Source of the DNA: Acidobacteriota bacterium
GTDB taxonomy: Bacteria; Acidobacteriota; UBA6911; RPQK01; JAJDTT01
NCBI GenBank assembly: GCA_022827025.1
Contig: JAJDTT010000280.1
Span: forward strand, 1-53,529
Reading direction: 5' to 3'
Length of the DNA stretch: 53,529 nt
Part shown: in pieces, positions 4,655 through 19,089 of the stretch
Layout: the number at the start of each line of letters is the position of its first letter
Position numbering within the stretch: position 1 is the stretch's first letter
Translations under genes and position numbers: made by a program
The notes under the pieces: generated by a model
The model's input: only the letters and a program-made list of their open reading frames with translations
Databases searched by the model: none
Told to the model about the DNA's origin: nothing

Positions 4655-6403
4655 ATGAAACGCTCCGGTCCGCCCCCCCGGAGGGGCGTTCGCTACGAAC
4701 CTCCCGAGAAGCCGCCGCACCTGCTCTCCCTGGGACTCGGCCTGCAGCTCGTGATGCTGAATATCAGCGGAATCGTGCTGATCCCGAAGATCATCATCGA
4801 AGCCGCTGGCGCCGGCGACATCTACCTCTCCTGGGCCGTGTTCGCCGGACTCTGTGTCTGCGGCCTGATCACCATCATCCAGGCGATTCGAATCGGAAGG
4901 ATGGGAGCCGGCTACATCCTTCTGATGGGGACCTCCGGCACCTTCGTCGCCGTGTCGATCACCGCCTTGACTGAAGGAGGACCGGCTCTGTTGGCCACCT
5001 TGATCGTGGTCTCGTCCCTGTTTCAGTTCCTGTTGGGCTCCCGTCTCGTGCTGCTGCGCCGGGTGGTCACGCCGTTGGTGGCGGGGACGGTCATCATGCT
5101 GGTGGCGGTGACCATCATGCCCATCGCCTTCAAGATGCTGGCGCGGCCGCCCGACGGGGCCCCGCCGGCGGCCGCTCCCGTCAGCTTTGCGGTGACCCTC
5201 GTCTCGATGGCCGGTCTTGCCCTCTTCGCCACGGGGGCGTGGCGGCTCTGGGGACCGGTTCTGGGTGTGGTCGCGGGTTGCAGCGTAGCGGCGTACTACG
5301 GGATCTACGACACCACCCGCGTCGGCGCCGCCCCTTGGTTCGGGCTGCCCCCCAGCGGCTGGCCCGGCTTCGACCTGAGTTTCGGCCCGTCATTCTGGGC
5401 GTTGCTGCCGGTATTCATATTCGTGGTGGCCATCGATACGGTGAGGACCATCGGCGGCTCCATCAGCATCCAGCAGGTGTCCTGGCGGCAGCCGCGGGCC
5501 ACCGATTTCCGCTCGGTGCAGGGCACCATCTCGGCAAGCGGCTTGTCCAACCTCCTCTCGGGTCTGGTGGGGACGTTGCCCAATACGACCTACTCCTCCA
5601 GTATCTCGGTGGCCGCGCTCACGGGTGTGGCTGCCCGCAACGTGGGAGTCTGCGTCGGGATCCTCATCATCGTCTTCTCCTTGTTCCCCAAAGCGACGGC
5701 GGTGATCCTGGCCATTCCCGATCCGGTCGTTGCGGCCTACGTGGTCGTACTCATCTCGCTTCTGTTCGTCGTGGGAACGCGGATCGTGGTCCGTTACGGC
5801 CTGGACAGCCGCAAGAGCATCGTGGTCGGCGTTGCATTCTGGTTGGGGGTCGGTTTCCAGAACCGGCAGATCTTCTCGGAGCACCTGGGTGATGCAGTGG
5901 CTTCGATCCTGGAGAACGGGATCGCCGCCGGTGGACTGGCCGCGATCGTGATGACAGTCGCCCTGGAATTGTCCAAGCCCCGGCGGAGGAAGATCAAGAC
6001 GAAGCTGAGTATGGAGTCGTTGGCGGAGGTCGACGAGTTCGTTCAGCGATTCGCCAAGGACAAACATTGGGACGCGACCTCAACGGGACGGCTGCGCGCG
6101 GCGACGGAGGAGGCGATTGTGAGCCTGGTTCCGGATGAGAGGGATTCGGAGCCGGAAGACGCGCGGAACCTGGTCCTGTCGATGGGAGGCGATGGCCGGA
6201 AGGCGGAATTGGAGTTTATCGCCGCGGCGGGGGAGGGTAATCTTGAGGATAAGTTGGCGCTGTTGGGGCAGTGGGCTGGACAGTCGAGCGATCGTGAATT
6301 CTCGCTCCGGCTGCTGCGCCACTTCGCCACCTCCGTGAGTCACCGTCAGTATCACGACACCGACGTCGTGACGCTCCGTGTAGACGCGGACAAGGGATCA
6401 TGA
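4655..6403 (+). CDS. NCS2 (xanthine/uracil-type) permease fused to GHKL/RsbW-like domain, copy 1
   Basis: 582 residues from the ATG at 4655, which aligns exactly with the start of the next gene. Residues about 20-435 are an NCS2/SLC23-type transporter with many hydrophobic helices, including GTSGTFVAV and the NTTYSSSISVAALTGVAAR loop. Residues about 442-582 are cytoplasmic and resemble the anti-sigma-factor-like GHKL ATPase domain. They run from helix VDEFVQRFA, through EEAIVS in the N-box, to a C-terminal RLLRHFATSV...DTDVVTLRV. The N-box Asn is replaced by Ser (E486, S490), so ATP binding is doubtful. In the transporter, the TM8 substrate-binding Glu of NCS2 proteins is Arg (R264), and the QNxG motif is SSIS. 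The substrate cannot be inferred; a sensor or transceptor role is possible. An earlier in-frame start would add 41 unrelated residues. Confidence 0.82.
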   Translation: MKRSGPPPRRGVRYEPPEKPPHLLSLGLGLQLVMLNISGIVLIPKIIIEAAGAGDIYLSWAVFAGLCVCGLITIIQAIRIGRMGAGYILLMGTSGTFVAVSITALTEGGPALLATLIVVSSLFQFLLGSRLVLLRRVVTPLVAGTVIMLVAVTIMPIAFKMLARPPDGAPPAAAPVSFAVTLVSMAGLALFATGAWRLWGPVLGVVAGCSVAAYYGIYDTTRVGAAPWFGLPPSGWPGFDLSFGPSFWALLPVFIFVVAIDTVRTIGGSISIQQVSWRQPRATDFRSVQGTISASGLSNLLSGLVGTLPNTTYSSSISVAALTGVAARNVGVCVGILIIVFSLFPKATAVILAIPDPVVAAYVVVLISLLFVVGTRIVVRYGLDSRKSIVVGVAFWLGVGFQNRQIFSEHLGDAVASILENGIAAGGLAAIVMTVALELSKPRRRKIKTKLSMESLAEVDEFVQRFAKDKHWDATSTGRLRAATEEAIVSLVPDERDSEPEDARNLVLSMGGDGRKAELEFIAAAGEGNLEDKLALLGQWAGQSSDREFSLRLLRHFATSVSHRQYHDTDVVTLRVDADKGS

Positions 6404-6494
6404 CGCGCAGGCAGACGGGCGGCCCGGAATTCGGTCAGCTCCCATTTCGGAAACGATTCGGCAACGACGGGTTGCGACAAACAGGGATTAACTT

Positions 6495-8255
6495 ATGAAG
6501 CCATCCGCTCCAGCTCTTCAGAAAGATATTCGTTACGAACCCAACGAGCGGCCTCCGAACATGCTCTCCCTGGGACTCGGATTTCAGCTTGTCCTGCTCA
6601 CTATCGGCGGGATCGTCCTGACCCCGGCCATCATCATTCGCGCGGCCGGCGGGGAGGAGGCCTACATGACCTGGGCGGTCTTCGCGGGGCTCTGCGTCTG
6701 CGGCGTATCCACGATCCTCCAGGCGGCCCGTGTCGGAAGGTTCGGTTCCGGCTACGTCCTCCTCATGGGAACGTCCGGCGTTTTTATCGCCGTGTCGGTG
6801 ACGGCGCTGGCGGAAGGGGGACCCGGACTACTGGCAACCTTGGTGGTCGTCTCGTCGCTAATCCAATTTGTTCTGGCATCGCACTTGTCCTTGCTCCGGA
6901 GGGTCATCACGCCGTTGGTGGCGGGGACCGTGATCATGCTGATCTCGGTGACCATCATGCCCATTGCCTTCAACATGATGGCCGATGCGGCGGAAGGGGC
7001 CAGATCCTCCGGCGCTCCCGCCAGCGCGGCCGCGACCCTGCTCTGCACGGCGGGTCTGGCCCTTTTCGCCAAGGGGAGCTTGCGGCTCTGGGCACCCGTT
7101 ATCGGCGTTGCCACAGGCTGTATCGTTTCTTCCTATTACGGCCTCTACGACGTCGCGCGAGTCGCCGAAGCTCCGTGGTTCGGAGTTCCCACGAGCGGCT
7201 GGCCCGGACTCAACCTGAGTTTCGGCGCCTCATTCTGGACCTTGCTCCCGGTCTTCGTTCTGGTGACCGTAGTGGGCGCCATCGAAACGGTCGGAGATGC
7301 CATCGGGATCCAACAGGTCTCCTGGCGGAAGCCGCGGGCAACCGACTTTCGCGCGGTGCAAGGCGCCGTTGGAGCGGACGGCGTGGGCAACCTCCTGTCG
7401 GGCCTGATGGGGACCGTGCCCAATACGACCTACTCCACCAGCATCGCCGTCACCGAGCTTACCGGCGTCGCCGCCCGATCCGTGGGGGTCTGCATCGGAA
7501 TCCTGTTCTTCTCCTTCGCCTTTCTGCCTAAAGTGACGGCGGCGATACTGGCCATTCCGGACCCGGTCGTCGCAGCCTACCTCCTGGTCCTGTTGTCCGT
7601 ACTCTTCGTCCTGGGCATGAGGATCGTGGCGCAGGACGGCATCGACAGCCGCAAGAGCGTGGTGGTCGGATTGTCTTTCTGGCTTGGCGTCGGTTTTCAG
7701 AACCAGCAGATCTTCGCCGACTACATGGACGGCATCTTGGCGACCATCCTTGGAAACGGCATGGCGGCCGGCGGACTGGCCGCCATCGTGATGACGGTGG
7801 CTCTGGATCTGGCCAAGCCGCGGAGGAGGCGAATCAAGGCCATGCTCAGCGTCGATTCGCTGCCGGAGATCGACGGGTTCATCTGCAAGTTCGCCGATGC
7901 CAAGGGTTGGAACGAGGCGTCGACGGACCGGCTCCGGGCCGCGGCGGAGGAATCGGTCCTGAGCCTGGTCCCGGATGAGGAGGCGCCGGAAGAGGAGGAA
8001 GCCCGGCACCTGCTGCTCCTGGTCCGCGGGGACGGCCGGGGAGCGGAGTTGGAATTCATCGCTTCGGCAGTCGAGGGGAATCTCGAGGACCGTCTGGCGC
8101 TCCTGGGCCAGTGGGCGAGGCGATCGGTCGACCGCGAGTTCTCGCTCCGGCTGCTTCGCCATTACGCGAGTTCGGTGCGCCACCGCCAGTACCACGACAC
8201 CGACGTGGTGACGGTGCGGGTGGAAGCGGACGCACCAGCGACGAGTGGCGGCTGA
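6495..8255 (+). CDS. NCS2 permease fused to GHKL/RsbW-like domain, copy 2
   Basis: 586 residues, a close tandem paralogue of the preceding gene and colinear over its whole length, with AGGG ahead of the ATG. It has the same architecture: NCS2 transporter (about 20-435), then a GHKL/RsbW-like tail (about 440-580) with E486 and Ser490 in place of the N-box Asn. Unlike copy 1 it keeps the TM8 acidic residue (E264 in AIETVGDAIG), so it may be the transport-competent partner. The TM10 signature is also unusual (TTYSTSIAV). The gap to copy 1 is 91 bp, which fits a two-gene operon. Co-assembly of a transporting and a non-transporting subunit is an inference. No purine or pyrimidine catabolic genes are adjacent. 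Confidence 0.83.
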   Translation: MKPSAPALQKDIRYEPNERPPNMLSLGLGFQLVLLTIGGIVLTPAIIIRAAGGEEAYMTWAVFAGLCVCGVSTILQAARVGRFGSGYVLLMGTSGVFIAVSVTALAEGGPGLLATLVVVSSLIQFVLASHLSLLRRVITPLVAGTVIMLISVTIMPIAFNMMADAAEGARSSGAPASAAATLLCTAGLALFAKGSLRLWAPVIGVATGCIVSSYYGLYDVARVAEAPWFGVPTSGWPGLNLSFGASFWTLLPVFVLVTVVGAIETVGDAIGIQQVSWRKPRATDFRAVQGAVGADGVGNLLSGLMGTVPNTTYSTSIAVTELTGVAARSVGVCIGILFFSFAFLPKVTAAILAIPDPVVAAYLLVLLSVLFVLGMRIVAQDGIDSRKSVVVGLSFWLGVGFQNQQIFADYMDGILATILGNGMAAGGLAAIVMTVALDLAKPRRRRIKAMLSVDSLPEIDGFICKFADAKGWNEASTDRLRAAAEESVLSLVPDEEAPEEEEARHLLLLVRGDGRGAELEFIASAVEGNLEDRLALLGQWARRSVDREFSLRLLRHYASSVRHRQYHDTDVVTVRVEADAPATSGG

Positions 8256-8365
8256 GAAAAATACGCCACGGGTCTCCGATATCAACCTGCACTTCCCGTG
8301 TGCCGTGCAAAGGCGCTACGTTTTCGATATCAAGACGCTCCTTCGTCCCGGCTGTAGTTGATTTT

Positions 8366-8390
8366 GAAAATGAAATTCAGTTTCATGTTC
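8366..8390. promoter_or_regulatory. Fur-like palindrome upstream of the iron ABC operon
   Basis: ATGAAA-TTCAG-TTTCAT (8370-8386) is a perfect 6+6 palindrome. Outer bases GAAA/GTTC extend it to 25 bp with nine of ten pairs per arm matching. It is AT-rich in an otherwise GC-rich window and lies 30-55 bp upstream of the iron-binding-protein ATG. Position and composition fit a Fur-type iron repressor site, although the match to the classical 19-bp Fur box is partial. Confidence 0.45.
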
Positions 8391-8419
8391 GGGCAGGTTA
8401 GATAAGGAGACTGAACATC

Positions 8420-9421
8420 ATGAACGCAATTCCTCGTCGATTCGTCATCCTTGCGGCGATCTCATTGATATTGCCCGCCATGGCGAGTGCCCAGGAGGTC
8501 AACGTCTACTCGACGCGCTCGCACTACGGGTCCGAGCCCGCCTTCGAGTTGTTCACCGAGAAGACCGGAATCAAGGTCAACTTCTTCATGGGCAACAACA
8601 ACGAGGTCTTCGAACGGCTGCGGGCCGAGGGCGCCAACACCCGGGCCGACGTCATGGTGACGGTCGACGCGGGCAATCTGTGGAACGCGGCCCGCGAAGG
8701 GCTGCTCATGCCCATCGAATCCGACACCCTGATGAAAAATGTCCCGGCGCACCTCCGCGATCCGCAGAACCGGTGGTTCGGCCTCGCTGTCCGCGCGCGC
8801 ACCATCATGTACAGCACGGAGCGCGTGAAGCCTGACGAGCTTTCGACGTATGCGGGGCTGGCGGATCCGAAATGGAAGGGCCGCATCTGTTTGCGCACGT
8901 CCAACAGCATCTACAATCAGTCCCTGCTCGCCTCGGCGATCGGAGCTCACGGCGAAGCGGCAGTGGAGAAGATGGTTGGAGGCTGGGTCGCGAACGGGCC
9001 GGAGATCGTCAATTCGGATCGCCCCGTCCTCCGCGCCATCGCTGCGGGGCAGTGCGACGTCGGCATCACCAACAGCTACTACCTCGCGCGCATTTTGGAC
9101 AAAGAGCCCAATCTGCCGGTCGCGCCGTTCTGGGCCAACCAGGAGACGACCGGAACCCACGTGAACATCTCGGGAGCGGGCGTCACCAAGTACGCGAAGA
9201 ACAAGGAAAACGCAGTTCGGCTCCTGGAGTTCATCACCTCCGTCGAGGCGCAGAACACACTTGCCGCGAGCAGTTTCGAGTATCCGGCCAACCCGGCTGC
9301 GGAGCCGCACGCGATCCTGAAAGGCTGGGGCGACTTCAAGCAAGAGCAGGTGGGCGTCTCTGCGGCCGGTGAGAATCAGGCGGCCGCGATCAAGCTCGCC
9401 GACCGTGCCGGCTACCGGTAG
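8420..9421 (+). CDS. fbpA: Fe(III) ABC transporter periplasmic binding protein
   Basis: 333 residues with AAGGAG 10 nt before the ATG. A signal peptide (VILAAISLILPAMASAQE) is followed by the mature start EVNVYSTRSHY. The sequence follows the FbpA/FutA class of ferric-binding proteins: a YS.R early tyrosine region, DVMVTVDAGNLW, WFGLAVRAR, and the paired iron-ligand tyrosines in TNSYYLARI. It captures ferric iron in the periplasm for the permease encoded 6 bp downstream. The operon order, binding protein then permease then ATPase, is canonical. Thiamine or putrescine binding is less likely given the double tyrosine. Confidence 0.9.
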   Translation: MNAIPRRFVILAAISLILPAMASAQEVNVYSTRSHYGSEPAFELFTEKTGIKVNFFMGNNNEVFERLRAEGANTRADVMVTVDAGNLWNAAREGLLMPIESDTLMKNVPAHLRDPQNRWFGLAVRARTIMYSTERVKPDELSTYAGLADPKWKGRICLRTSNSIYNQSLLASAIGAHGEAAVEKMVGGWVANGPEIVNSDRPVLRAIAAGQCDVGITNSYYLARILDKEPNLPVAPFWANQETTGTHVNISGAGVTKYAKNKENAVRLLEFITSVEAQNTLAASSFEYPANPAAEPHAILKGWGDFKQEQVGVSAAGENQAAAIKLADRAGYR

Positions 9422-9427
9422 TTTCTC

Positions 9428-11056
9428 ATGGCTCGAAGCTCGCGGGCGCTCGCCGTCGGAGCGTGGCTCACGGCTGCGCTCGTGGCGCTCCCCATTCTCA
9501 GCGTCGCGCTCAATCTGACCTCTCCGCGGGGTGAGGTGTGGCGTCACCTCGCGGATACGATTCTCTGGGAGCTTCTGTCGAACACATTCTGGCTCCTTCT
9601 GGGGGTCGGCGCACTCGCAGGCCTCATGGGGACGGTCTCCGCATGGCTCGTCGCGACCCGGCGGTTTCCCGGCCGCGATGTTTTCGAATGGGCGCTCGTC
9701 TTGCCGCTCGCCGTGCCGACCTACGTCATCGGCTTCGTGTTCGTGGCGCTCTTCGAGTATGCGGGGCCGGTCCCCACGTTTTTTCGCGAGACCCTCGGTA
9801 TCGGTTGGCGGTTTCCGAACGTGCGGTCGTACGGAGGCGTCGTCCTCGCAATGAGCCTGGTCGTGTATCCGTACGTCTATCTGCTCGCCCTGACGGCGTT
9901 TCGCGAGCTGGGAGCGAACCTCACCGAGGTGGCGCGTAGCCTGGGCTGCCGGCCGGCAGCCGTATTCCGGAGAGTCGGATTGCCGTTGGCCCGACCGGCG
10001 ATTGCCACCGGTGTCGCACTCGCCCTCATGGAGACGCTCGCCGACTTTGGAACCGTCTCCGTGTTCGGCTATCGAACGCTGACGACGGCCATCTATCGCG
10101 TCTGGTTCGGCATGTTCGACCGTGTCGCGGCGGGCCAGCTCGCGGTGGTGCTCATGCTGTTCGCGTTGATGCTCGTTACTCTGGAACAGCGGGCACGGGG
10201 CCGTATGCGATTCGTTCAAGCTCACGGACGAAACGTCGCCCGAACGCTTCCGCCGCTGACGGGAATAAGAGGCTGGGCGGCGACGGCGTTCGTTTCCGGC
10301 GTTCTGGCGGCAGGCTTTCTGGTTCCGACCGGTGTTCTCGCCTTCTGGAGCCTCCGTGCCGCGGAAGCGTCGCTTCTTCCCAGGAACTTTCCGGAGCTCT
10401 TGCGCAACACGCTTGCGCTCGCCGCATCCGCCTGCCTGCTCGCGGTCGCGGCGGCAACCGTCCTCGCCTATGCGGCCCGCTCCACTCGTTCGCGTGCTTT
10501 GTCGTTCGGGACTCGTGTTGCGAGTCTCGGCTACGCAATACCCGGGTCCGTCATCGCCGTCGGTGTTCTGTTGACGCTCGTCCGCATCGACGGCATTATC
10601 AACGCCGCCCTCGGTTGGTTCGGAGACTTCGGCGTCGGTTTGATTCTGACCGGCTCGGCGCTCGGACTGTTGTTCGCTTATCTTGTCCGCTTCATCTCGG
10701 TGGCGTTCTTCTCGGTGGAGTCGGGGCTCACCCGGATCTCGGGTAGCATGGACGAGAGTGCGCGCGGTCTAGGCGCGGGACCGGCTCGCGTGCTTGGCCG
10801 CGTTCATCTCCCGCTTCTTCGAGGTTCCCTGTTGACCGCTCTCATTCTCGTCTTCGTCGATGTGATGAAGGAAATGCCGGCGACGATGCTGATCCGCCCG
10901 TTCGGCGTCGACACCCTCGCCGTGGAGGTATGGCAGCGAACGGCAGAGTCGATGTGGACCGAAGCGTCGGCCCCGGCTCTTTCGATCGTCGCAGCCGGGA
11001 TCTTGCCCGTCATCGTGCTGACGAGGCTTCGGGGCACGAACGAGGCGCGGCTGTAA
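9428..11056 (+). CDS. fbpB: Fe(III) ABC transporter permease (fused two-domain)
   Basis: 542 residues, about twice a single BPD-type permease, with two homologous six-helix halves. Each half has an EAA loop: one around ELGANLTEVARSLGCRP and one around MDESARGLGAGPARVLG. These contact the ATPase. It forms the inner-membrane channel for ferric iron and is typical in size for FbpB/SfuB. It lies 6 bp after the binding-protein stop and 3 bp before the ATPase start, so translation is probably coupled. Confidence 0.92.
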   Translation: MARSSRALAVGAWLTAALVALPILSVALNLTSPRGEVWRHLADTILWELLSNTFWLLLGVGALAGLMGTVSAWLVATRRFPGRDVFEWALVLPLAVPTYVIGFVFVALFEYAGPVPTFFRETLGIGWRFPNVRSYGGVVLAMSLVVYPYVYLLALTAFRELGANLTEVARSLGCRPAAVFRRVGLPLARPAIATGVALALMETLADFGTVSVFGYRTLTTAIYRVWFGMFDRVAAGQLAVVLMLFALMLVTLEQRARGRMRFVQAHGRNVARTLPPLTGIRGWAATAFVSGVLAAGFLVPTGVLAFWSLRAAEASLLPRNFPELLRNTLALAASACLLAVAAATVLAYAARSTRSRALSFGTRVASLGYAIPGSVIAVGVLLTLVRIDGIINAALGWFGDFGVGLILTGSALGLLFAYLVRFISVAFFSVESGLTRISGSMDESARGLGAGPARVLGRVHLPLLRGSLLTALILVFVDVMKEMPATMLIRPFGVDTLAVEVWQRTAESMWTEASAPALSIVAAGILPVIVLTRLRGTNEARL

Positions 11057-11059
11057 ACG

Positions 11060-12112
11060 ATGCCGGACGTCTTCCTGTCCCTCGACGGCCTCGACAAGAC
11101 TTTCGAAGGCTCGCCGGCGCCGGCCGTGTCGGGCGTGTCGTTCTCCATGCCGGAGGGTGAGATCCTGGCGCTCCTCGGTCCCAGCGGGTGCGGCAAGACG
11201 ACGACCCTTCGTCTGATCGCCGGATTCGAGACACCGGACCGCGGCACGATTCGCATTGGGGGGCGAATCGTACAGAGCGGCGTCGTCGAGTTCCCGCCGG
11301 AAGAGCGCCGCGTCGGTTTCGTCTTCCAGGACTATGCGCTGTTTCCGCATTTGGATGTCCGAAAAAACGTCGAGTTCGGCCTGTCCGGACTGCCCCCCGG
11401 CGCTCGTGAGCGGCGCGCTCGCGAGGCGATGGATCTTTGCGGTCTCGAAGGGATGGAATCACGCTTTCCGCACCAGCTCTCCGGCGGGCAACAGCAGCGC
11501 ACGGCGCTCGCGCGGGCGCTCGCTCCGGGGTACGAGCTTCTCTTGCTGGACGAGCCGCTGTCGAACCTGGACGCGGCCCTTCGCACGAGCTTGTGCAAAG
11601 AGCTTCGGCGGATCCTGAAACATGCCGGACGCGCCGCCATCGTCGTCACGCACGACCGGGAGGAAGCCTTTCAGATCGCGGACCGGGTGGCGGTGATGCG
11701 CGATGGGAAGCTCGAGCAAGTGGGCTCGGCCCGCGATCTTCACGATCGTCCGGGCGGCCGGTTCGTCGCGGAATTCGTGCTGGACGCCACCTTCCTGGCG
11801 GGAGTCGTCGCGAGGCACGGAGTAGAAACTGAACTCGGTCCGATTCCGGGTGTGGAATCGGCCGCGGTGGGAACGAGAGTGGTCGTTGCCGTCAGACCGC
11901 ACCAGCTTGAGCTCACACCGAGTCGCGACGGAGCAGGCGTTGTCGTCGAGCGTGTGTTTCGCGGTTCCCACGAACGCTATCGCGTGCGGTTGCCGTCGGG
12001 AACCGTGCTGGCGAGTTTTCAGACCATACGGACCGGCGCCTCGTCGTTGGACGTTGGTGCGCCCGTCGCCCTGAAGCTCACCGACCCCATGCCGCCCATC
12101 TTCGTCGAGTAG
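11060..12112 (+). CDS. fbpC: Fe(III) ABC transporter ATP-binding protein
   Basis: 350 residues. Walker A is GPSGCGKTT (40-48), the Q-loop is FVFQDYALFPH, the ABC signature is LSGGQQQR (140-147), Walker B is LLLLDEPLSNLD (about 160-171) and the switch His is in VVTHDREEA. The C-terminal third (about 240-350) is a TOBE-like regulatory domain (VVAVRPHQLEL). The length and tail match FbpC-type ATPases. It energises the permease encoded just upstream. The three-gene operon appears complete, with no outer-membrane siderophore receptor beside it. Confidence 0.92.
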   Translation: MPDVFLSLDGLDKTFEGSPAPAVSGVSFSMPEGEILALLGPSGCGKTTTLRLIAGFETPDRGTIRIGGRIVQSGVVEFPPEERRVGFVFQDYALFPHLDVRKNVEFGLSGLPPGARERRAREAMDLCGLEGMESRFPHQLSGGQQQRTALARALAPGYELLLLDEPLSNLDAALRTSLCKELRRILKHAGRAAIVVTHDREEAFQIADRVAVMRDGKLEQVGSARDLHDRPGGRFVAEFVLDATFLAGVVARHGVETELGPIPGVESAAVGTRVVVAVRPHQLELTPSRDGAGVVVERVFRGSHERYRVRLPSGTVLASFQTIRTGASSLDVGAPVALKLTDPMPPIFVE

Positions 12113-12129
12113 TTCTCTCCTTCGTCAGG

Positions 12130-12210
12130 TTGTCTCACGACAGACCGTCCGGCTAAGATATGCGCTCACCTCGACGGAATGGTGTAAGTGAATTTTGGAG
12201 GTGATTTCCA
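12130..12210 (+). promoter_or_regulatory. Candidate promoter and strong RBS for the ankyrin lipoprotein
   Basis: TTGTCT (12130-12135) and TAAGAT (12154-12159) are separated by 18 nt and could serve as -35 and -10. Just before the ATG lies TGGAGGTGATTT, an almost full-length anti-16S match with about 6 nt spacing. It is the strongest Shine-Dalgarno noted in the window. The ribosome site is convincing; the promoter boxes are only moderate. Confidence 0.4.
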
Positions 12211-13788
12211 ATGATCCGGGCACTGAGTCAATCGAATAAATTCTGTTTTCTCCTGCTCCTCTTACTCGTTGTGGCGAGCTGCTCCTCCAACGTCCGGCGG
12301 GAGATGGAGGATGCGGTGGAGGCCGGCGAGGCTTCCTATGTGGAAGACCTGATCGTGGATGGGGCCGATCCCAATCGCGTCTATGGCGGCAAGTCGCTGC
12401 TGGTCAGGGCGGCCGAGCAGGGACATGCCGGGGTGATCCAGGCCCTGGTGGCGGGTGGCGCCGATCTGGCCTGGGCGGATCCGGACGGAAAAACGGCGCT
12501 GATGCATGCCGTCGAAAAGGGGCACCTGGAAGCCGCGGACGCGCTCTTGGGACTGGGAGGCAAACTGGACGGCGAGGACCGCCGGGGAGAGCGGCCTCTG
12601 GCGTTGGCGGCCGCCGAAGGACAGATGGCGATGGTGGAATTCCTCTTGGAGAAGGGGGCCGAAGTGGGGGCCAAAGACGCCGCGGGCCGGACTCCCATCA
12701 TGCGGGCCGCTGAGGAGGGGCATACGGCCGTGATCGAGGCTTTGGAAGGGGCCGGGGCCAAGGTCAAGGACTCGGACAACTCGGGCCGAACCCCTCTGCT
12801 CTTCGCGTCCACCGGCGGACATACGGCAATCGTCTCCGACTTTCTCTCCAAGGGGGCCGACGTCAATGCCTACACCAAGATGGGGTGGACTCCCCTCATG
12901 GTGGCATCGGGCGAGGGTCACCTGGAGACGGGGAAGGTTCTTTTGGAGAAGAAGGCCCGGGTCGACTACAAGGACGCGGACAAGCGCACCGCCCTGCTCT
13001 GGGCGGCGGGTCGAGGGCAGACTGCCATGATCGAGCTTCTCCTGGAGAATGGCGCCCAACTGGATGCCATGGACAACAATGGCCGCAACGCCGTCTGGCT
13101 CGCCGCCAGTCACGGCAGCGACGAGACGTTGACGCTGTTGCTGGAGAAGGGGCGCAAGAAATGGCCGCGGTCTCTTCACTATTTCCGGGACGCCGGCGAC
13201 AGACGGGGCCAGACCCCGCTCATGGCGGCGGCGGAAGGGGGTCACATCGGGAGCATGAATCTGCTCATCGACTCGGGTTCCAGAATCAGGACCCGCGCCC
13301 GGCGGTCCGGATGGACGGCCCTTCTCATCGCCGCCAACCAGGGTAAGACCGAAGCGGCCAAGCTCCTGATGTCCAAGGGGGCCAACGTGAACGCCAAGAC
13401 CAAGGATGGTCTTCCGTGCTTGATGCTGGCTGTCAACGAAGGGCACGCCGACACGGTGGAGGCCCTGATTCAAGGTGGAGCCCGGGTCAACTTTCGTCTC
13501 AACGCCGATTGGACTCCGTTGATGCACGCGGCATCGGAGGGCAGGGAAAAGATCGTGCGTTCGCTGTTGGCGGGAGGCGCCGACGTCACGGCCACGAACT
13601 ACAACGGCTGGACGGCTCTCATGCTGGCGGTCGCCGAAAAGGAACCCGAATGCGTCCAGGCCTTGATCGAGGGCGGTGCCGACGTCAACGTCAAGGGAAA
13701 CGATGGCCGGAGCGCGCTGAAGCTGGCGGTCCAGCAGGGTTACGGACGAATCATGGGGATTCTCACCGAGGCCGGAGCCACGCAGTAG
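12211..13788 (+). CDS. Ankyrin-repeat lipoprotein
   Basis: 525 residues. The N-terminus is a lipoprotein signal: an LLLLLLVVASC lipobox with Cys at about residue 24. The rest is a nearly continuous run of roughly 14 ankyrin repeats of about 33 residues, each with the G.TPLM.AA..GH...V..LL..GA pattern. No catalytic domain is visible. It is predicted to be membrane-anchored on the periplasmic side, or surface-exposed, and to bind a protein partner. It follows the iron operon by 98 bp but has its own RBS and possible promoter. The conserved repeats make the exact number approximate. Confidence 0.9.
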   Translation: MIRALSQSNKFCFLLLLLLVVASCSSNVRREMEDAVEAGEASYVEDLIVDGADPNRVYGGKSLLVRAAEQGHAGVIQALVAGGADLAWADPDGKTALMHAVEKGHLEAADALLGLGGKLDGEDRRGERPLALAAAEGQMAMVEFLLEKGAEVGAKDAAGRTPIMRAAEEGHTAVIEALEGAGAKVKDSDNSGRTPLLFASTGGHTAIVSDFLSKGADVNAYTKMGWTPLMVASGEGHLETGKVLLEKKARVDYKDADKRTALLWAAGRGQTAMIELLLENGAQLDAMDNNGRNAVWLAASHGSDETLTLLLEKGRKKWPRSLHYFRDAGDRRGQTPLMAAAEGGHIGSMNLLIDSGSRIRTRARRSGWTALLIAANQGKTEAAKLLMSKGANVNAKTKDGLPCLMLAVNEGHADTVEALIQGGARVNFRLNADWTPLMHAASEGREKIVRSLLAGGADVTATNYNGWTALMLAVAEKEPECVQALIEGGADVNVKGNDGRSALKLAVQQGYGRIMGILTEAGATQ

Positions 13789-13891: not shown

Positions 13892-14950
13892 TCAGCTCGG
13901 ATCCCGGAACGTCAGCACCCTCTTGGGGTTCTCCACGAAGATCTGGTGGAGGGCCTTGTCGTCCACGCCCAGGTTCTTCAGCCGGGGCACGATGTTCTCC
14001 AGGATGTGTCCGTAGCCGTTCCCGCCGTAGGTGACCAGGTCGCACTGGAAGCAGCAGTCCTGAGCCGCCGTGACGGACCCGGCGTAGCCGTCGGCCACCA
14101 GGGTGGCGATGATGTGGTTCCGGAGGTCGTCGGGCGGATGCTGGCGGCCGGCGCCGGCGAAGTACATTTCCCGTCCGTAGGTGTCGAATCCCAGCATGCA
14201 CCCGGTGTCGGCCAGGCGCTTGTAGCGGTCCATGTCCTCGCGGTAGCGGTTCTCGATGTGGCTCATGATGACCCGGTCGGGTTGGACCCCCTCTTCCTTC
14301 AGCAGCTCGATGAGGGAGAGGGGAGAGTCGGGATCGTGGCCGGGGTGGACCGAGATGGGGGCGCCGGTCTCCAGGTGCGCGCGGGCGCCCGCCCGGAAGG
14401 TCTTCTCCTCATCGGGGTGCAAGGGCCAGGAAGCCCCCAGCTCTCCGATGAGGCCGGAGAGGACGTCGGTTCCGTGGCCGCCGCGGGTGAGGTCTCCCAC
14501 GATCTCCTCCTGAATGTTCTCGATGGTCTTGGAGGCCATGTCCGGCGGATGGGAGGGGTAGATGTAGTATCCGCTCCCGGCGATCACGTGCAATCCGGTC
14601 CTCTCGGAGATCCTCCTGAGACCGGCCGGATTGGGCTCGATGCCGTTGATGGTGCAGTCCACCATGGCTCGTCCGCCCAGGTCCATGTAGAGTTCGACCT
14701 CCGAGGCGATGACGTCATCGTCGTAGGACCGGAGGTTGGGCCAGGAGCTCATGGTGTTGTTCCGGACCCAGCCCAGCGTGGACAGGCTCAGTTCCCGGTC
14801 CGTGAGCCGTTTCCCCTTCTCGTCCTGAGGCGGCTGGTAATAGCAGGTCAGGTCGAAATAGAGGTGCTCGTGAATCAGGGTCACCCCCAGGTCTTCGGGT
14901 GCGATGGGGCCGGTCACCGTCTGAATCTTGCCTCGTAGCGCTTCGATCAT
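13892..14950 (-). CDS. Phosphotriesterase-like metal-dependent hydrolase
   Basis: About 352 residues from the ATG at 14950, preceded by GGAGAGGAC. It is a TIM-barrel amidohydrolase of the phosphotriesterase homology group. HEH (27-29, TLIHEHLYF) binds the first metal. A Glu in IGELGAS is the likely bridging ligand, replacing carboxylated Lys. Later ligands are H in SVHPG, H in SHIEN and D in GFDTYG. Such enzymes are mostly lactonases or esterases of unknown natural substrate. It is the last gene of a minus-strand run after MFS, EutA-like and M24 genes. It may hydrolyse a product of that pathway. The longer upstream reading frame overlaps the M24 stop and is not needed. Confidence 0.85.
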   Translation of the reverse strand: MIEALRGKIQTVTGPIAPEDLGVTLIHEHLYFDLTCYYQPPQDEKGKRLTDRELSLSTLGWVRNNTMSSWPNLRSYDDDVIASEVELYMDLGGRAMVDCTINGIEPNPAGLRRISERTGLHVIAGSGYYIYPSHPPDMASKTIENIQEEIVGDLTRGGHGTDVLSGLIGELGASWPLHPDEEKTFRAGARAHLETGAPISVHPGHDPDSPLSLIELLKEEGVQPDRVIMSHIENRYREDMDRYKRLADTGCMLGFDTYGREMYFAGAGRQHPPDDLRNHIIATLVADGYAGSVTAAQDCCFQCDLVTYGGNGYGHILENIVPRLKNLGVDDKALHQIFVENPKRVLTFRDPS

Positions 14951-15026
14951 GCTGTCCTCTCCGGTTGTCTTGATTTTGGGTTGGTTTTTGGCCGTCTCCA
15001 GCCGCTGAGTCCCGGGTCCGTTTCCG

Positions 15027-16190
15027 CTAACTTCCAAATCGGATTTGTTGCAGCCGCGCCGGAGTCCGGGCCAGGGCCTCGGTTTCGTCCTCTCCGATCA
15101 GGATGGTCTGACTCAGATTCACACCGTACTCGCCGTACTTGCGGACCGACATGGGGAGATGGAAGGTCATGCCGGCTTCCAGCGGCCCGGGATTGTCGGT
15201 GCGCATGAGAAAGTCCAGCTCTTCGATCCAGCTTGGCGGGTAGCCGATTCCCACCGGATAGCCGAAGTTGTAGTGGAAGACGTGGCCGGGAAGGACCGGC
15301 TCCAGGATCGCCAGGGCCGTTCGGGCCACGTGAGCGGCCTCGACGCCGGGGCGCGCCTCCTCCCGGATGCAGGCGAGAGCCGCGCGGCCGGCCGCCTCTA
15401 CGCGTTTCATGGCGTCCGACGGCGGTCCCAGAACCGCGGTGCGCATGAGGGGCGCCACGTAGCGCCGCACCTGGGCCGTCAGCTCCAGGAAGACGGTCTG
15501 GCCGCGCCGTAGCGGCAGCCCCATGAAGGTGCTGTGGGCGCTGCCCGCACGGTAGCCGGCGGCCACGATGGGTCCCCAGCAGACGGTGTCGCTGCCATTG
15601 CCGTACATGGCCTCCATGATCGCCGCGGCCACGTCCGAATCCCGTTGGCCCTCCTGCATGGCGGCGTAGGCCGCCTCCACCCCCAGATCGGTCAGGATGG
15701 CGGCCCGGCGCATGCAGGCGATCTCGGCCGGCGACTTGACCAGCCGGGAACGTTCCACCACGCCGAAGGGATCCTCGATCCGCAAGTCGGACAATTCCGC
15801 TGCCAATCGCCGGTAGTGGTCCGGCGAAACCGCCCGGTTGCGCCGCTCCAGGCCCAGATTCCGGACCTTCAGCCGGCGCACCGCGTCCAGAGTGACTTGG
15901 AGCGGGTCTTCGAACGGCCCGTAGAACACCTGGCCCCGATGCCAGCAGGAGTTCGCGGCCCGGGCCTCCTCGAAATGGGAAGTGACCAGAATCGGGTCGC
16001 CGCCGGCGGGGACCAGAAGGCATTGGTAGTCGGAGAGGTTCTCCGTGTCCATCCCCGAGAGGTAGAAAACGTTGTGGGGACTGAACAGGACCAGAGCGTC
16101 CAGGGATCGCGACGCCATGGATTCGTGGACCCTTTCCAGGCGGCGCCGGTACTCGGCGACTTCGAAGGCGGGCTCTCTGGGGATCGGCAT
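15027..16190 (-). CDS. M24 family creatinase/ectoine-hydrolase-like enzyme without metal ligands
   Basis: 387 residues with AAGGAG 9 nt before the ATG. It has a creatinase N-terminal domain (about 1-150; DALVLFSPHNVFYLSGMDT) and a C-terminal pita-bread M24 domain. In metallo-aminopeptidases the first metal Asp pair lies in D-L-G...D-x-T-R-T. Here the stretch reads FLELTAQVRRYVAPLMRT, with Glu and Pro instead. The late Glu sites read FHLPMS and VNLSQT. A GIGYPPSW segment fits the non-metal creatinase/DoeA branch. It therefore probably cleaves a C-N bond in a small molecule rather than Xaa-Pro peptides. The next gene upstream is EutA-like, as in ectoine utilisation clusters, but the other ectoine genes are absent. 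Confidence 0.82.
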   Translation of the reverse strand: MPIPREPAFEVAEYRRRLERVHESMASRSLDALVLFSPHNVFYLSGMDTENLSDYQCLLVPAGGDPILVTSHFEEARAANSCWHRGQVFYGPFEDPLQVTLDAVRRLKVRNLGLERRNRAVSPDHYRRLAAELSDLRIEDPFGVVERSRLVKSPAEIACMRRAAILTDLGVEAAYAAMQEGQRDSDVAAAIMEAMYGNGSDTVCWGPIVAAGYRAGSAHSTFMGLPLRRGQTVFLELTAQVRRYVAPLMRTAVLGPPSDAMKRVEAAGRAALACIREEARPGVEAAHVARTALAILEPVLPGHVFHYNFGYPVGIGYPPSWIEELDFLMRTDNPGPLEAGMTFHLPMSVRKYGEYGVNLSQTILIGEDETEALARTPARLQQIRFGS

Positions 16191-16217
16191 GTCCGTCTTC
16201 TCCTTCAGGATCGGGTT

Positions 16218-16988
16218 TCAGTTTCCGCCGGCGTTCGAGGCCGTGCGGGTGTTTCCATCGCTGAACAGCGAACCCATGGAGTCGTCCACCTGGAAGGGGC
16301 CTCCGCCGACGAGTTGAAGCGCCTGCCAGAGCGTCACCTGATTCGCCGTCAGGACCGGCTTGCCGCCGACCGCTTCCTCCAGACCGGAGACCCAGCCGGC
16401 CGAGTGCATGGCCGTGTCCGGAACTACGATGGCTTCGGCGTCCGGGTGATCGTTGCTGGCGACGAAACGGGTCACCTGTTCCTGGTTCAACAGGGCCACT
16501 TCCACTCCCGTGACGATGCCGAGGCAGTCCAGGTGGACCGTCTCGACTCCGGCATCGGCCAGGAAACGTTTCAGCAGCAGGGTCACGTCCCGGGGATAGC
16601 TGGCGGCCACCGCCACGCGCCGGATGCCCAGGAAATGAAGGGCCGTGACGAAGGCCAGGGAGGTGCTGGAGACCGGGACTCCCAGGTAGTCGGCCACCGG
16701 CCGTACCTGGTCCCGGGCCCCTTCCAATCCGTAGACGAAACTGCCGCTGGTGCAGGCCCACATGGCGGCGTCCAACTTCCTGGGAGCCAGTTCCCGCGCA
16801 CCTTCCAGGAGCCGGTTCACGTCCCCGGTGGCCAGGCAGGCGTCCTCGCGGTGGGCGTCCTCGGAAATGGTGGTGTGCACGACTTCCATCTCCACCCGGG
16901 GGCGGACCATGGGAGCCATGCGCGGGTAGTCGTCTTCGGCCGAATGAAACGGATAGAGGATTCCGATGCGCGCTGTCTGGTCAGTCAT
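16218..16988 (-). CDS. Maleate isomerase/arylmalonate decarboxylase-like (EutA-like) protein
   Basis: 256 residues of the Asp/Glu racemase fold. The first catalytic Cys is C79 in WACTSGSF. At the place of the second Cys (SCT in maleate isomerases) the sequence reads VPDTAMHS, so only one catalytic Cys is present. That resembles single-Cys relatives such as AMDase or EutA more than a two-Cys racemase, although AMDase keeps the other Cys. The KPVLTANQVTLWQAL ending is typical of the family. Its start overlaps the MFS 3' end by 8 bp, indicating tight translational coupling. The role is inferred to be isomerisation or decarboxylation of a small carboxylate imported by the MFS protein. Confidence 0.78.
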   Translation of the reverse strand: MTDQTARIGILYPFHSAEDDYPRMAPMVRPRVEMEVVHTTISEDAHREDACLATGDVNRLLEGARELAPRKLDAAMWACTSGSFVYGLEGARDQVRPVADYLGVPVSSTSLAFVTALHFLGIRRVAVAASYPRDVTLLLKRFLADAGVETVHLDCLGIVTGVEVALLNQEQVTRFVASNDHPDAEAIVVPDTAMHSAGWVSGLEEAVGGKPVLTANQVTLWQALQLVGGGPFQVDDSMGSLFSDGNTRTASNAGGN

Positions 16989-18246
16989 GAGATTTGGCAG
17001 CGATTGTCTCCGCCTGCTTCGGCAAGCACAACACCAGCGTCAGCGCCAGCGCCGCCATGGCCAAACCGAAGCCGAAGCTGGCGGGAAAGCCGAAGGCGTC
17101 GGCGAGGGCGCCGTGGAGCGCCGGCGCGAAGGAACTGACGGGAAGCACCAGCGAAAGGAAGGCGTTGTTCCGCGCCGCCGCGGCCGCCGCGGAGACGCTG
17201 ATGACGTAGTTGGGAAAGTAGGCGCCGGCCAGTTCGCCCCCGCCCATGAAGGCGAAGGCCATCAGGAAGGCGTGGCCCGGCACCACCCAGGCCCAGAGGA
17301 TCCCTGCCGCCGTCAGCAGCACCGTCGTCACCAGGGGCGCCCGGATTCCCCAACGGATCATGATCACCCCCAGGGCGAAACCGGTGACGGCCTTGAATCC
17401 GAAGCGGAGGGCGTTCATGTAGCCGGCGTAGTCCTTGGGATCGGCTCCCAGGGCCTCCCGGCTGTAGAGGGAGAGGTTGGTGGTGGAGTTCCAGGCCAGG
17501 AACAGGAGCAGATACGCGATCCAGATCACGAAGAGGGTCCGGACCTGGAGATAGGACCGGAACGTGGTCTTCATGGTCTCGGCGAAGGGAGGTTTCTTCT
17601 CCGGGATATCCACCAGGCGGAAGCGCGTGGCCAGGAAGGCGACCCCTCCCGTGCAGCCCGCGGCCATCAGGTAGAGAAGTCCGAAGTCTTTGGGATGGGA
17701 CAGAGCCGGAATTCCCCCGCCCAGGATGAACTGGGCCAGCAGGTTGCCCACCACCGCCAGGATGGGTGTGAAGGCGAAGGTCCATTTCAGGCAGCGGGCC
17801 CGGCCCTTCAGGCTCGTGCCCCGCTTCAGGCACTGGTACATGTAGACGATGGAGGAGGAGTCCGCCAGGCCCAGGACCAGCCCCTGGCCGATGACCACCC
17901 CCAGGCGGATCGAATCGGCGACCGGCAGGAAAAGGGACAGCGCCACCAGGACCAATGAAGAGGAGGTCACCAGGTTGGCCGCCACCACCACCGTCCGCTC
18001 GAAGCGGTAGGCCAGGGTCCAGGAGAGGATGACGGGAAAGAAAAACCCCAGGAAATAGGCCGAATTGGGCAGGTTGGCCACGGCCGCGCTGGCGCCCAGC
18101 TTGTCGCACAGAGCCGCCTGAACGATCCCGACGTAGACCACCGGAGAGGCGAAGTAGATGAGCAGATGGGAGATGGCGAAGACCCAGGAGTTATGCCGGT
18201 CCATGTCCCGGGTGACCGTCTCGGGGTTCGGTGCCTCGCCTGTCAT
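16981..18246 (-). CDS. MFS transporter
   Basis: 421 residues with about 12 hydrophobic helices and a central hydrophilic loop near DIPEKKPPFAETMKTTF. This is a typical major-facilitator layout in the inner membrane. It is first in a four-gene minus-strand operon with the EutA-like, M24 and phosphotriesterase-like genes, so it probably imports the substrate of that small pathway. No specificity motif was recognised. The start Met is followed by a short cytoplasmic N-terminus before the first helix (WVFAISHLLIYFASPV). The upstream region contains the 150-bp repeats. Confidence 0.88.
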   Translation of the reverse strand: MTGEAPNPETVTRDMDRHNSWVFAISHLLIYFASPVVYVGIVQAALCDKLGASAAVANLPNSAYFLGFFFPVILSWTLAYRFERTVVVAANLVTSSSLVLVALSLFLPVADSIRLGVVIGQGLVLGLADSSSIVYMYQCLKRGTSLKGRARCLKWTFAFTPILAVVGNLLAQFILGGGIPALSHPKDFGLLYLMAAGCTGGVAFLATRFRLVDIPEKKPPFAETMKTTFRSYLQVRTLFVIWIAYLLLFLAWNSTTNLSLYSREALGADPKDYAGYMNALRFGFKAVTGFALGVIMIRWGIRAPLVTTVLLTAAGILWAWVVPGHAFLMAFAFMGGGELAGAYFPNYVISVSAAAAAARNNAFLSLVLPVSSFAPALHGALADAFGFPASFGFGLAMAALALTLVLCLPKQAETIAAKSHD

Positions 18247-18340
18247 CTGCTCCTCTTACCGTTCCGTCACTTGGAAACCGACATCATAGGCCATTGCGCC
18301 GCCGCCGTCGCGCCGCAACCTATCCGTACGTCGGATCAAT

Positions 18341-18642
18341 GGAGTGGGGGTTTTCCTACCCCCACTCCCCCGGGGGGACTGGAAAGTCCCCTCCTATTCG
18401 CCCAACTCCGTCCCCACCGGGGCCCAGCGAAAGCAACCGCAGCGAAGAGGGGGACAAGAAAGTCCCCCCTCCGGGTGTCCCATGTTCAAAGGAGTGGGGG
18501 TTTTCCTACCCCCACTCTCACGGGGGGACTAAAAGTCCCCCCTCCTATCCGCCCAACTCCGGCCCCGCCGGGGCTCAGCGAAAGCAACCGCGGCGAAGAG
18601 GGGGACAAGAAAGTCCCCCCTCCGGGTGTCCCATGTTTCAAA
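18341..18642. repeat. Two tandem copies of a 150-bp hairpin-rich repeat
   Basis: Copy 1 covers 18341-18490 and copy 2 covers 18491-18642, both starting GGAGTGGGGGTTTTCC. They differ at few positions, including loop changes (GGAA versus AA). Each has three stems. In copy 1 they are AGTGGGGGT/ACCCCCACT (18343-18366), GGGGACT/AGTCCCC (18374-18391) and GGGGGAC/GTCCCCC near 18450-18467. No transposase is present, so this resembles a REP/MITE-like intergenic element. It overlaps the 3' end of a broken HicB-like gene. Confidence 0.85.
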
Positions 18643-18949
18643 GAAGAGCGCCGGGACTTGAGACCGGAGCGTAAACACGCGAGGTCTGTCACGGTCGCCC
18701 CGGAAGCCGTACAGCCAAGTCATGAGCCCCAGCTTGAACCTCACATACCAAGAGGACTTTCCCGTCAGGAATCGTCGCCGCTTCCGGCGACAAATCGGCA
18801 ACCGTTTCCAAATACATCCGGATGCACCTGTCAAGCGTCTCCTCCACTTCATTGGCCGAAGCGCCGAAGACGGCGATGTCAAGGTCAACGCAGATCGCTT
18901 CCCAATTCTCGCCGCTGGCGTAGGCATAGCATCGCAACTTCAGGCTCAT
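18529..18949 (-). pseudogene. HicB-like antitoxin (DUF1902-type), frameshifted
   Basis: The first part from the ATG at 18949 reads MSLKLRCYAYASGENWEAIC, then VDLDIAVFGASANEVEETLD. This is the start of a common small HicB-like/DUF1902 family. After DLSPE, near 18775-18790, similarity jumps to another minus-strand frame. That frame reads RRRFLTGKSSWYVRFKLG and MTWLYGFRG, the usual tail of the family. A +1 shift (one extra base or two missing) joins the parts. The second frame runs on into the 150-bp repeat, so the native stop also appears lost. No HicA toxin gene was recognised beside it. It may be a decayed remnant or an assembly error. Confidence 0.6.
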
Positions 18950-19089
18950 ACCGTCCCACCGTTGCCTTCGAGATGCATGCGATGATCGTCGCGTCCCCCT
19001 GCACGAGGGATATGGATTGCAAGGTCGTGGAAACATTCTGGCCCATCCGGCGCTGCTTCGCCGCGTGTTGGGGAACGACCTCCTCTTCC

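Follow-up and report, generated by a model that had tools for sequence, protein, structure and literature searches.

To our knowledge, metal-free enzymes of the M24 family are a little-explored means of hydrolyzing C-N bonds. One of them, DoeA, hydrolyzes ectoine (PMC3187862, in the part available). In the Asp/Glu-racemase superfamily, which includes arylmalonate decarboxylase (AMDase), EutA and maleate isomerase, the known wild-type AMDases (Cys188) give the (R) product and moving the cysteine to position 74 gives the (S) product; in the available part of the same source, none of 58 putative AMDases has a cysteine at position 74 (PMC4996985). The engineered AMDase G74C/C188S is 20,000-fold less active than the wild type (PMC12576825, available part). 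This report presents a four-gene set that combines members of both families, located between positions 13,892 and 18,246 of a 53,529-nucleotide (nt) stretch of DNA (hereafter the window: contig JAJDTT010000280.1 of assembly GCA_022827025.1) from an Acidobacteriota bacterium of the lineage UBA6911; RPQK01; JAJDTT01.

The set, so far known from one genus, may well be an operon that scavenges a small, nitrogen-containing acid other than ectoine. In the proposed scheme, a major facilitator superfamily (MFS) protein would bring the compound into the cell, import being the presumed direction of transport, and a metal-free M24 enzyme would hydrolyze a C-N bond (amidine, guanidino or cyclic amide) by means of Glu236, His219 and His344, residues common to DoeA. 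A racemase-superfamily enzyme with the pair Cys79/Asp191 would perform a one-sided proton transfer or isomerization (epimerization, cis-trans isomerization or decarboxylation) on a carboxylate intermediate, and a phosphotriesterase (PTE)-like enzyme would use two metal ions to hydrolyze an amide or lactone. The reaction types and the roles of the named residues are presumed, and the order of the steps is not fixed by the data; a cyclic amide or amidine, as suggested in a preliminary description of this DNA, may be the substrate. This reading is preferred because the tight co-directional layout is kept within the genus under purifying selection, because the M24 protein falls in a metal-free clade with DoeA (the sole annotated ectoine hydrolase in the tree), because a metal-free M24 gene adjoins an EutA-superfamily gene in five of ten Chloroflexota loci and the two families share a cluster in genome G020 and in eut, and because all six metal ligands of the phosphotriesterase-related protein PTER are present in the PTE-like protein and a good model confirms the fold of the racemase-superfamily protein. 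The features of the set are as follows.

16981..18246, minus strand: MFS transporter gene, first in the set (P0001, 421 amino acids; MFS_1 match).
16218..16988, minus strand: Asp/Glu-racemase (AMDase/EutA/maleate isomerase) superfamily enzyme (P0002, 256 amino acids; Amdase match and predicted fold).
16752..16754, minus strand: Cys79 codon, the first-lobe catalytic cysteine position, equivalent to AMDase position 74 (clade alignment).
16416..16418, minus strand: Asp191 codon, the second catalytic cysteine position, equivalent to AMDase Cys188 (clade alignment).
15027..16190, minus strand: metal-free M24-family hydrolase of the DoeA type (P0003, 387 amino acids; Peptidase_M24 match, ligand columns and tree).
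13892..14950, minus strand: PTE-like binuclear metallohydrolase (P0004, 352 amino acids from the ATG; PTE match, closest to PTER-type proteins).

All four open reading frames (ORFs) are present, co-oriented on the minus strand from 18246 to 13892, where the preliminary description had placed a four-gene operon. The MFS and racemase-superfamily genes overlap by 8 nt, a gap of 27 nt precedes the M24 gene, and a further 76 nt separate it from the PTE-like gene; co-transcription of the four genes is presumed. Each protein passes the gathering cut-off of its Pfam family (bits, with the cut-off in parentheses): Amdase 74.6 (25.9), Peptidase_M24 99.6 (23), PTE 227.8 (22.4) and, narrowly, MFS_1 36.5 (33.4). 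The program's ORF list puts the start of the PTE-like gene at a TTG at 15037; the alternative ATG at 14950 is most likely the true start, since it corresponds to the first start of the orthologous ORF in locus L023 and is the start chosen by the gene caller in both the window and L125.

Every part of the set belongs to a known superfamily, and its most noteworthy element is the Cys/Asp clade to which P0002 belongs. The predicted structure of P0002 (pLDDT, the predicted local distance difference test score, 91.6; 34 sequences) confirms, as a model, the Asp/Glu-racemase superfamily fold, and the PF17645 cut-off is also passed. Its best fold matches are tied: maleate isomerases 4fq5 (Z 31.6) and 2xed (Z 31.4) and AMDase G74C/C188S (3ixl, Z 31.4). 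A profile of the clade matches 11 solved structures, none of them a close relative, the best being AMDase chains that are 24% identical to P0002. The contig search with P0002 yielded 80 loci, 78 of them outside the genus. In the clade alignment (at least 43% local identity, a threshold that leaves out farther members such as a Cys/Asp protein of Nitratireductor), Cys79 and Asp191 are each present in 84 of 84 rows, as are Thr80, Ser81 and Tyr131; the 84 rows represent 82 distinct loci, two genus contigs being counted twice. More distant paralogues have Cys at position 79 in 76 of 78 cases and Cys at position 191 in 75 of 78. A tree of 48 rows separates 20 Cys/Asp rows from 28 others, including annotated EutA, with support of 100/98; the tree holds 47 different rows, some near-identical, and one annotated EutA only, and its long-branch warning covers both EutA and the Nitratireductor row, which is counted in the clade.

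These results bear on two claims of the preliminary description. A neighbor of the M24 gene with a single catalytic cysteine, C79, is borne out, the second-cysteine position being D191. The term "EutA-like" holds for the superfamily and no further, given that the score of P0002 on EutA equivalog TIGR02990 is 97 bits against a cut-off of 318; the protein is not EutA itself, its clade standing apart from the annotated EutA tested. The AMDase equivalog NF052327 gives 70.4 bits against a cut-off of 225, and the AMDase residues Gly74 and Cys188 are replaced by Cys79 and Asp191. Scores, residues and tree alike lead to rejection of P0002 as a true EutA or AMDase. A "split cysteine" pair with a tandem paralogue is likewise rejected: the paralogue usually has both cysteines, and none is present in this operon. 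As aligned, the Cys/Asp clade carries its cysteine naturally on the side to which AMDase was engineered, with Asp opposite, and Asp191 could serve as the acid-base partner.

By record titles, the clade is distributed among Acidobacteriota, Poribacteria, Gemmatimonadetes, Latescibacterota, Chloroflexi and Actinobacteria, with the more distant Cys/Asp member in Nitratireductor. Genes in loci other than the window were called with a simple GC-position gene caller, and some loci meet a contig end before the 5 kb over which neighbors were counted. Within 5 kb in 71 actinobacterial loci are found a second racemase-superfamily paralogue (68), GntR (67), D-2-hydroxyacid dehydrogenase (66), amidase (63), DUF3830 (60) and class-III aminotransferase (42). 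These genes form a conserved, uncharacterized cluster (L031, L041, L088 and others, at about 4,900-12,600) comprising amidase, D-2-hydroxyacid dehydrogenase, DUF3830, two racemase-superfamily genes, GntR and class-III aminotransferase; as a rule, one of the two racemase-superfamily genes is of the Cys/Cys type and the other of the Cys/Asp type. Six loci from metagenome-assembled genomes (labeled Poribacteria, Gemmatimonadetes or Latescibacterota) all have an acetoacetate-decarboxylase-family gene and a DUF3830 gene within 5 kb, and three of the six have hydantoinase B; in these loci (L025-L030, at about 9,000-11,500) the acetoacetate-decarboxylase-family gene, the Cys/Asp enzyme and the DUF3830 gene are consecutive. 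The one Chloroflexi locus has a racemase-superfamily paralogue within the same distance. The one DUF3830 match in the genome of the window is on a different contig, next to what reads like a fumarylacetoacetate hydrolase gene. The partners of the clade elsewhere differ from those in the window, which therefore represents a different setting of the enzyme.

It is possible, if doubtful, that the Cys79/Asp191 clade is an unrecognized enzyme class of the superfamily, with a one-sided acid-base pair for stereospecific proton transfer or isomerization, joined in this genus to metal-free M24 and PTER-like hydrolases as a new catabolic route. The literature examined on the family yielded no description of a Cys/Asp clade, which is no proof that it is undescribed. 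If the proposal is true, the clade is a natural instance of the stereospecific layout that AMDase reached by engineering, and it would help to explain the roles of uncharacterized EutA/AMDase-like genes. Since the clade spans many phyla, one assay would inform many genomes.

The M24 protein P0003 also matches Creatinase_N (64.3 bits). The preliminary description had likened it to DoeA and creatinase and had noted that it is without the usual metal ligands; it is indeed a metal-free protein of the DoeA type: all five ligand columns are substituted, with E236, P247, Y311, P346 and S360 in place of D, D, H, E and E, and the protein groups apart from metal-dependent prolidases. At the first three of these columns, an annotated DoeA from a Rhizobium plasmid, to which P0003 is 28% identical, has Glu, Pro and Tyr as well, and it also shares His219 and His344. 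A tree of 28 rows (chosen from more matches; L114 and L134 are without a row, and several phylum matches were left out) places P0003 within a 13-row metal-free clade that includes DoeA, with support of 99/98, apart from prolidase-like proteins. Identity as a metal-dependent prolidase is rejected on ligand columns and tree position. The closest solved structure by sequence is DoeA 6twk (E 3.3e-36, 128.4 bits); creatinase 1chm is a distant solved relative (E 1.6e-10, 43.9 bits). By the family cut-off P0003 is not a DoeA, scoring 153.3 bits on the ectoine hydrolase equivalog TIGR02993 against 613. A structure predicted from two sequences is unusable (pLDDT 34.3). From its residues and grouping, P0003 most likely works like the metal-free M24 hydrolases. 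The genome of the window (G000) has 10 M24 matches, P0003 included; another M24 protein that lacks the usual metal ligands (26% identity) is encoded on contig G000:C168 (L194 154-1341) and is also present in G003.

Metal-free M24 genes related to P0003 have recurrent neighbors in other genomes. Of 301 Chloroflexota genomes, 19 encode an M24 protein that matches P0003 at E 1e-45 or better (35-40% identity); the Chloroflexota proteins were aligned with P0003 but left out of the tree, and the neighbors were read in 10 of the 19 matched loci. In five of the ten, the M24 gene adjoins an EutA-superfamily gene that is co-oriented with it. A hydantoinase-B-like gene adjoins the M24 gene in L154 (8243-11069) and lies within about 4 kb of it in L163 (8204-13480), both M24 genes being metal-free and 35-38% identical to P0003; three of the ten loci have neither kind of neighbor. 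On contig 200 of G020 (L123), genes for an M24 protein (36%), an amidohydrolase, an ornithine-cyclodeaminase-family protein, an Amdase-family protein with Cys at 79 and Ala at 191, and a DHDPS-family protein stand in a row; this cluster is similar to an ectoine cluster but is not one. In L136, eutB and eutC stand between eutA and doeA of the eut cluster. Clusters that hold both a metal-free M24 gene and a member of the EutA superfamily recur, and the Cys/Asp partner type of the window is not among these cases.

The phosphotriesterase-like enzyme reported as an addition to the set in the preliminary description is present: P0004 scores 227.8 bits on PTE, and the solved structures nearest to it in sequence are 9efa (a phosphotriesterase-related protein, E 7e-69) and 3k2g. 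It passes the PF02126 gathering score and has six metal ligands, H27, H29, E170, H202, H231 and D298, which match all those of mouse PTER (H26, H28, E169, H201, H230 and D298). The substrate residues of mouse PTER, R204, R233 and H300, are replaced by H205, N234 and C300. These residues, numbered as in the available part of PMC13311154, were compared through an alignment to 9efa in which mouse PTER itself is not included. Because the substrate residues differ, P0004 is probably a PTER-like metallohydrolase that acts on another substrate, and PTER activity on N-acetyltaurine is disfavored by the same comparison. Five PTE-like matches at E 1e-40 or better, P0004 included, occur in the genome. 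On a Roseovarius plasmid, a 37% relative of P0004 occurs with an MFS gene, a D-2-hydroxyacid dehydrogenase gene and a metal-type M24 gene, a loose parallel only.

Both genes flanking the set are oppositely oriented; one ends at 13788 and reads as ankyrin-repeat-like, and the other begins near 19065. Upstream of the MFS gene, at 18336-18644, are two tandem copies of a G+C-rich repeat, spaced 150-151 nt apart and 86-92% alike. This repeat of about 150 bp is dispersed, with at least 46 matches on many contigs of the same genome (40 of 241 candidates scored).

Within the genus, the first three genes occur in the same order in each of three other genomes, with 89-98% protein identity (96-98% for the MFS orthologues, found in all three). 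The PTE-like gene is next in order in G002 and G003 (95% and 97% identity), and in G001 the contig stops inside the M24 gene. The ratio of nonsynonymous to synonymous substitution (dN/dS) is 0.042-0.185 over the four genes (MFS 0.06-0.11, racemase-superfamily 0.16-0.19); the MFS, racemase-like and M24 genes were compared with G003 and G002, and the PTE-like gene with G002 only, whose copy holds a run of N. All four genes are under purifying selection. Beyond the genus, P0002 matches in 60 relatives are 28-31% identical, plus one short piece at 42%, and M24 matches at E 1e-20 or better in 297 phylum genomes are 25-36% identical, the best in G020. Among ten genomes with relatives of P0002, two have an M24 match (E 1e-20) of 28-32% identity. 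The MFS gene is matched in two of 149 phylum genomes, its own and G003, and gave no match in the plasmid collection. Among the papers listed by literature searches on EutA chemistry and on the gene combination, none treats this operon.

Several observations weigh against a scavenging operon with a common substrate. Beyond the genus, no copy of the four-gene set turned up in any genome or locus searched. The 78 P0002-clade loci from outside the genus all lack an M24, PTE or MFS gene of the window type within 5 kb (E 1e-15), and the four proteins may therefore not share one pathway; a distant PTE relative (27-32%) lies farther away in three of these loci. Neighbor conservation, on which the preliminary description had staked its interpretation, thus holds within the genus and was not seen beyond it in those genomes and loci, and that interpretation as a whole is partly supported. 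The five EutA-superfamily neighbors in Chloroflexota are all of the two-Cys type, unlike the Cys/Asp type of the window. The branch of P0003 is long (1.2), its placement inside the metal-free clade is unsettled and a sister relationship with DoeA is unsupported; at position 361 it has Gln, where DoeA, the G020 protein and ten Chloroflexota proteins have Glu; Asn, Asp or Ala occupies the position in three further metal-free members. The MFS protein tells little about the substrate, because two paralogues in the same genome (54% and 51%, at G000:C54 and G000:C176; L186, L187) adjoin other enzymes. A promoter scan found no promoter-like site, and the sole terminator-like site in the scan is on the plus strand inside the PTE-like gene, shuffled sequence having given more.

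That the four genes have no joint pathway, and are locally assembled hydrolases without a common substrate in a genome rich in such families, is unlikely. The expansion of PTE-like proteins (5) and M24 matches (10), counts that include those of the window, would fit such an assembly, as would the MFS paralogues with other neighbors and the confinement of the four-gene set to the genus among all genomes and loci covered by the searches. Against it stand genes that overlap or lie close together, an order kept within the genus, purifying selection on all four, and the recurrence in another phylum of M24 beside an EutA-superfamily gene. Breakdown of an N-acyl or guanidino compound that is not a cyclic amidine (creatine-like, or an N-acetyl beta-amino acid), with the PTE-like protein as amidase and the M24 protein as amidinohydrolase, also has a low probability: the distant relationship to creatinase 1chm (E 1.6e-10) speaks for it, but creatinase scores far below DoeA (43.9 against 128.4 bits) and the PTER substrate residues are not retained.

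Very improbable is a divergent ectoine or hydroxyectoine route, with ring opening by the M24 enzyme, the PTE-like enzyme in place of the EutE/DoeB deacetylase and the racemase-like protein in the role of EutA. DoeA is indeed the closest solved structure to the M24 protein by sequence, and the PTE-like protein is closest to PTER-type proteins, mouse PTER being an N-acetyl amide hydrolase. However, the M24 protein is 28% identical to Rhizobium DoeA and scores 153 bits against 613, the EutA model gives 97 against 318, annotated EutA lies outside the Cys/Asp clade, and H, N and C take the place of R204, R233 and H300 of PTER. Some putative Bacillaceae ectoine clusters are without eutE (PMC13188858, available part), the activities of EutABC are uncertain (PMC8739950, available part), and a distant EutE-type gene elsewhere in the genome leaves room for a separate deacetylase; yet that gene, the one EutE-model match and on another contig, scores 114.7 bits against a cut-off of 402.7, and the four genes include no ectoine transporter, transaminase or dehydrogenase. 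As the preliminary description had observed, the other ectoine genes are absent, no ectoine equivalog scoring above its cut-off among the four genes. The ectoine pathway proper is rejected on model scores and gene content.

The scavenging operon proposed here shares with the eutABCDE/doeAB systems a metal-free M24 hydrolase and an AMDase/EutA-superfamily gene within one cluster, and DoeA too has lost the metal-ligand columns. In contrast to those systems, the M24 and racemase-like proteins of the window are far below the equivalog cut-offs, the set is without eutB, eutC, eutE, doeC and doeD and has MFS and PTE-like genes in addition, and the Cys/Cys pair of EutA is Cys/Asp in the racemase-like protein. 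AMDase G74C/C188S (3ixl) resembles P0002 in fold and in having its catalytic cysteine only on the first-lobe side, and T75, S76 and Y126 of AMDase correspond to Thr80, Ser81 and Tyr131; it differs in its low identity (24%) and in the Asp that P0002 has at the Cys188 position. Maleate isomerase (2xed, 4fq5) is alike in fold at 21-22% identity, with the second Cys replaced by Asp in P0002. Its C194S mutant still forms a succinyl-cysteine adduct (title of 2xed), which places the adduct on the remaining cysteine, that of the first lobe; by family alignment, this cysteine would occupy the place of Cys79. The L-Asp/Glu-specific racemase of E. coli (EcL-DER) likewise has an unbalanced acid-base pair, Thr83/Cys197 (PMC12661438, available part), but its cysteine is the second of the pair, whereas P0002 has Cys first and Asp second. 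PTER (an N-acetyltaurine/N-acetyl-beta-alanine hydrolase) and 3k2g are closest to P0004 by sequence and share its six metal ligands, including Glu. The actinobacterial cluster of amidase, D-2-hydroxyacid dehydrogenase, DUF3830, racemase pair and GntR contains orthologues of P0002 (43-57%) with the same Cys/Asp pair; unlike the window, it has other partner genes and, no more than 5 kb away in 68 of 71 loci, a second paralogue that is mostly of the two-Cys type.

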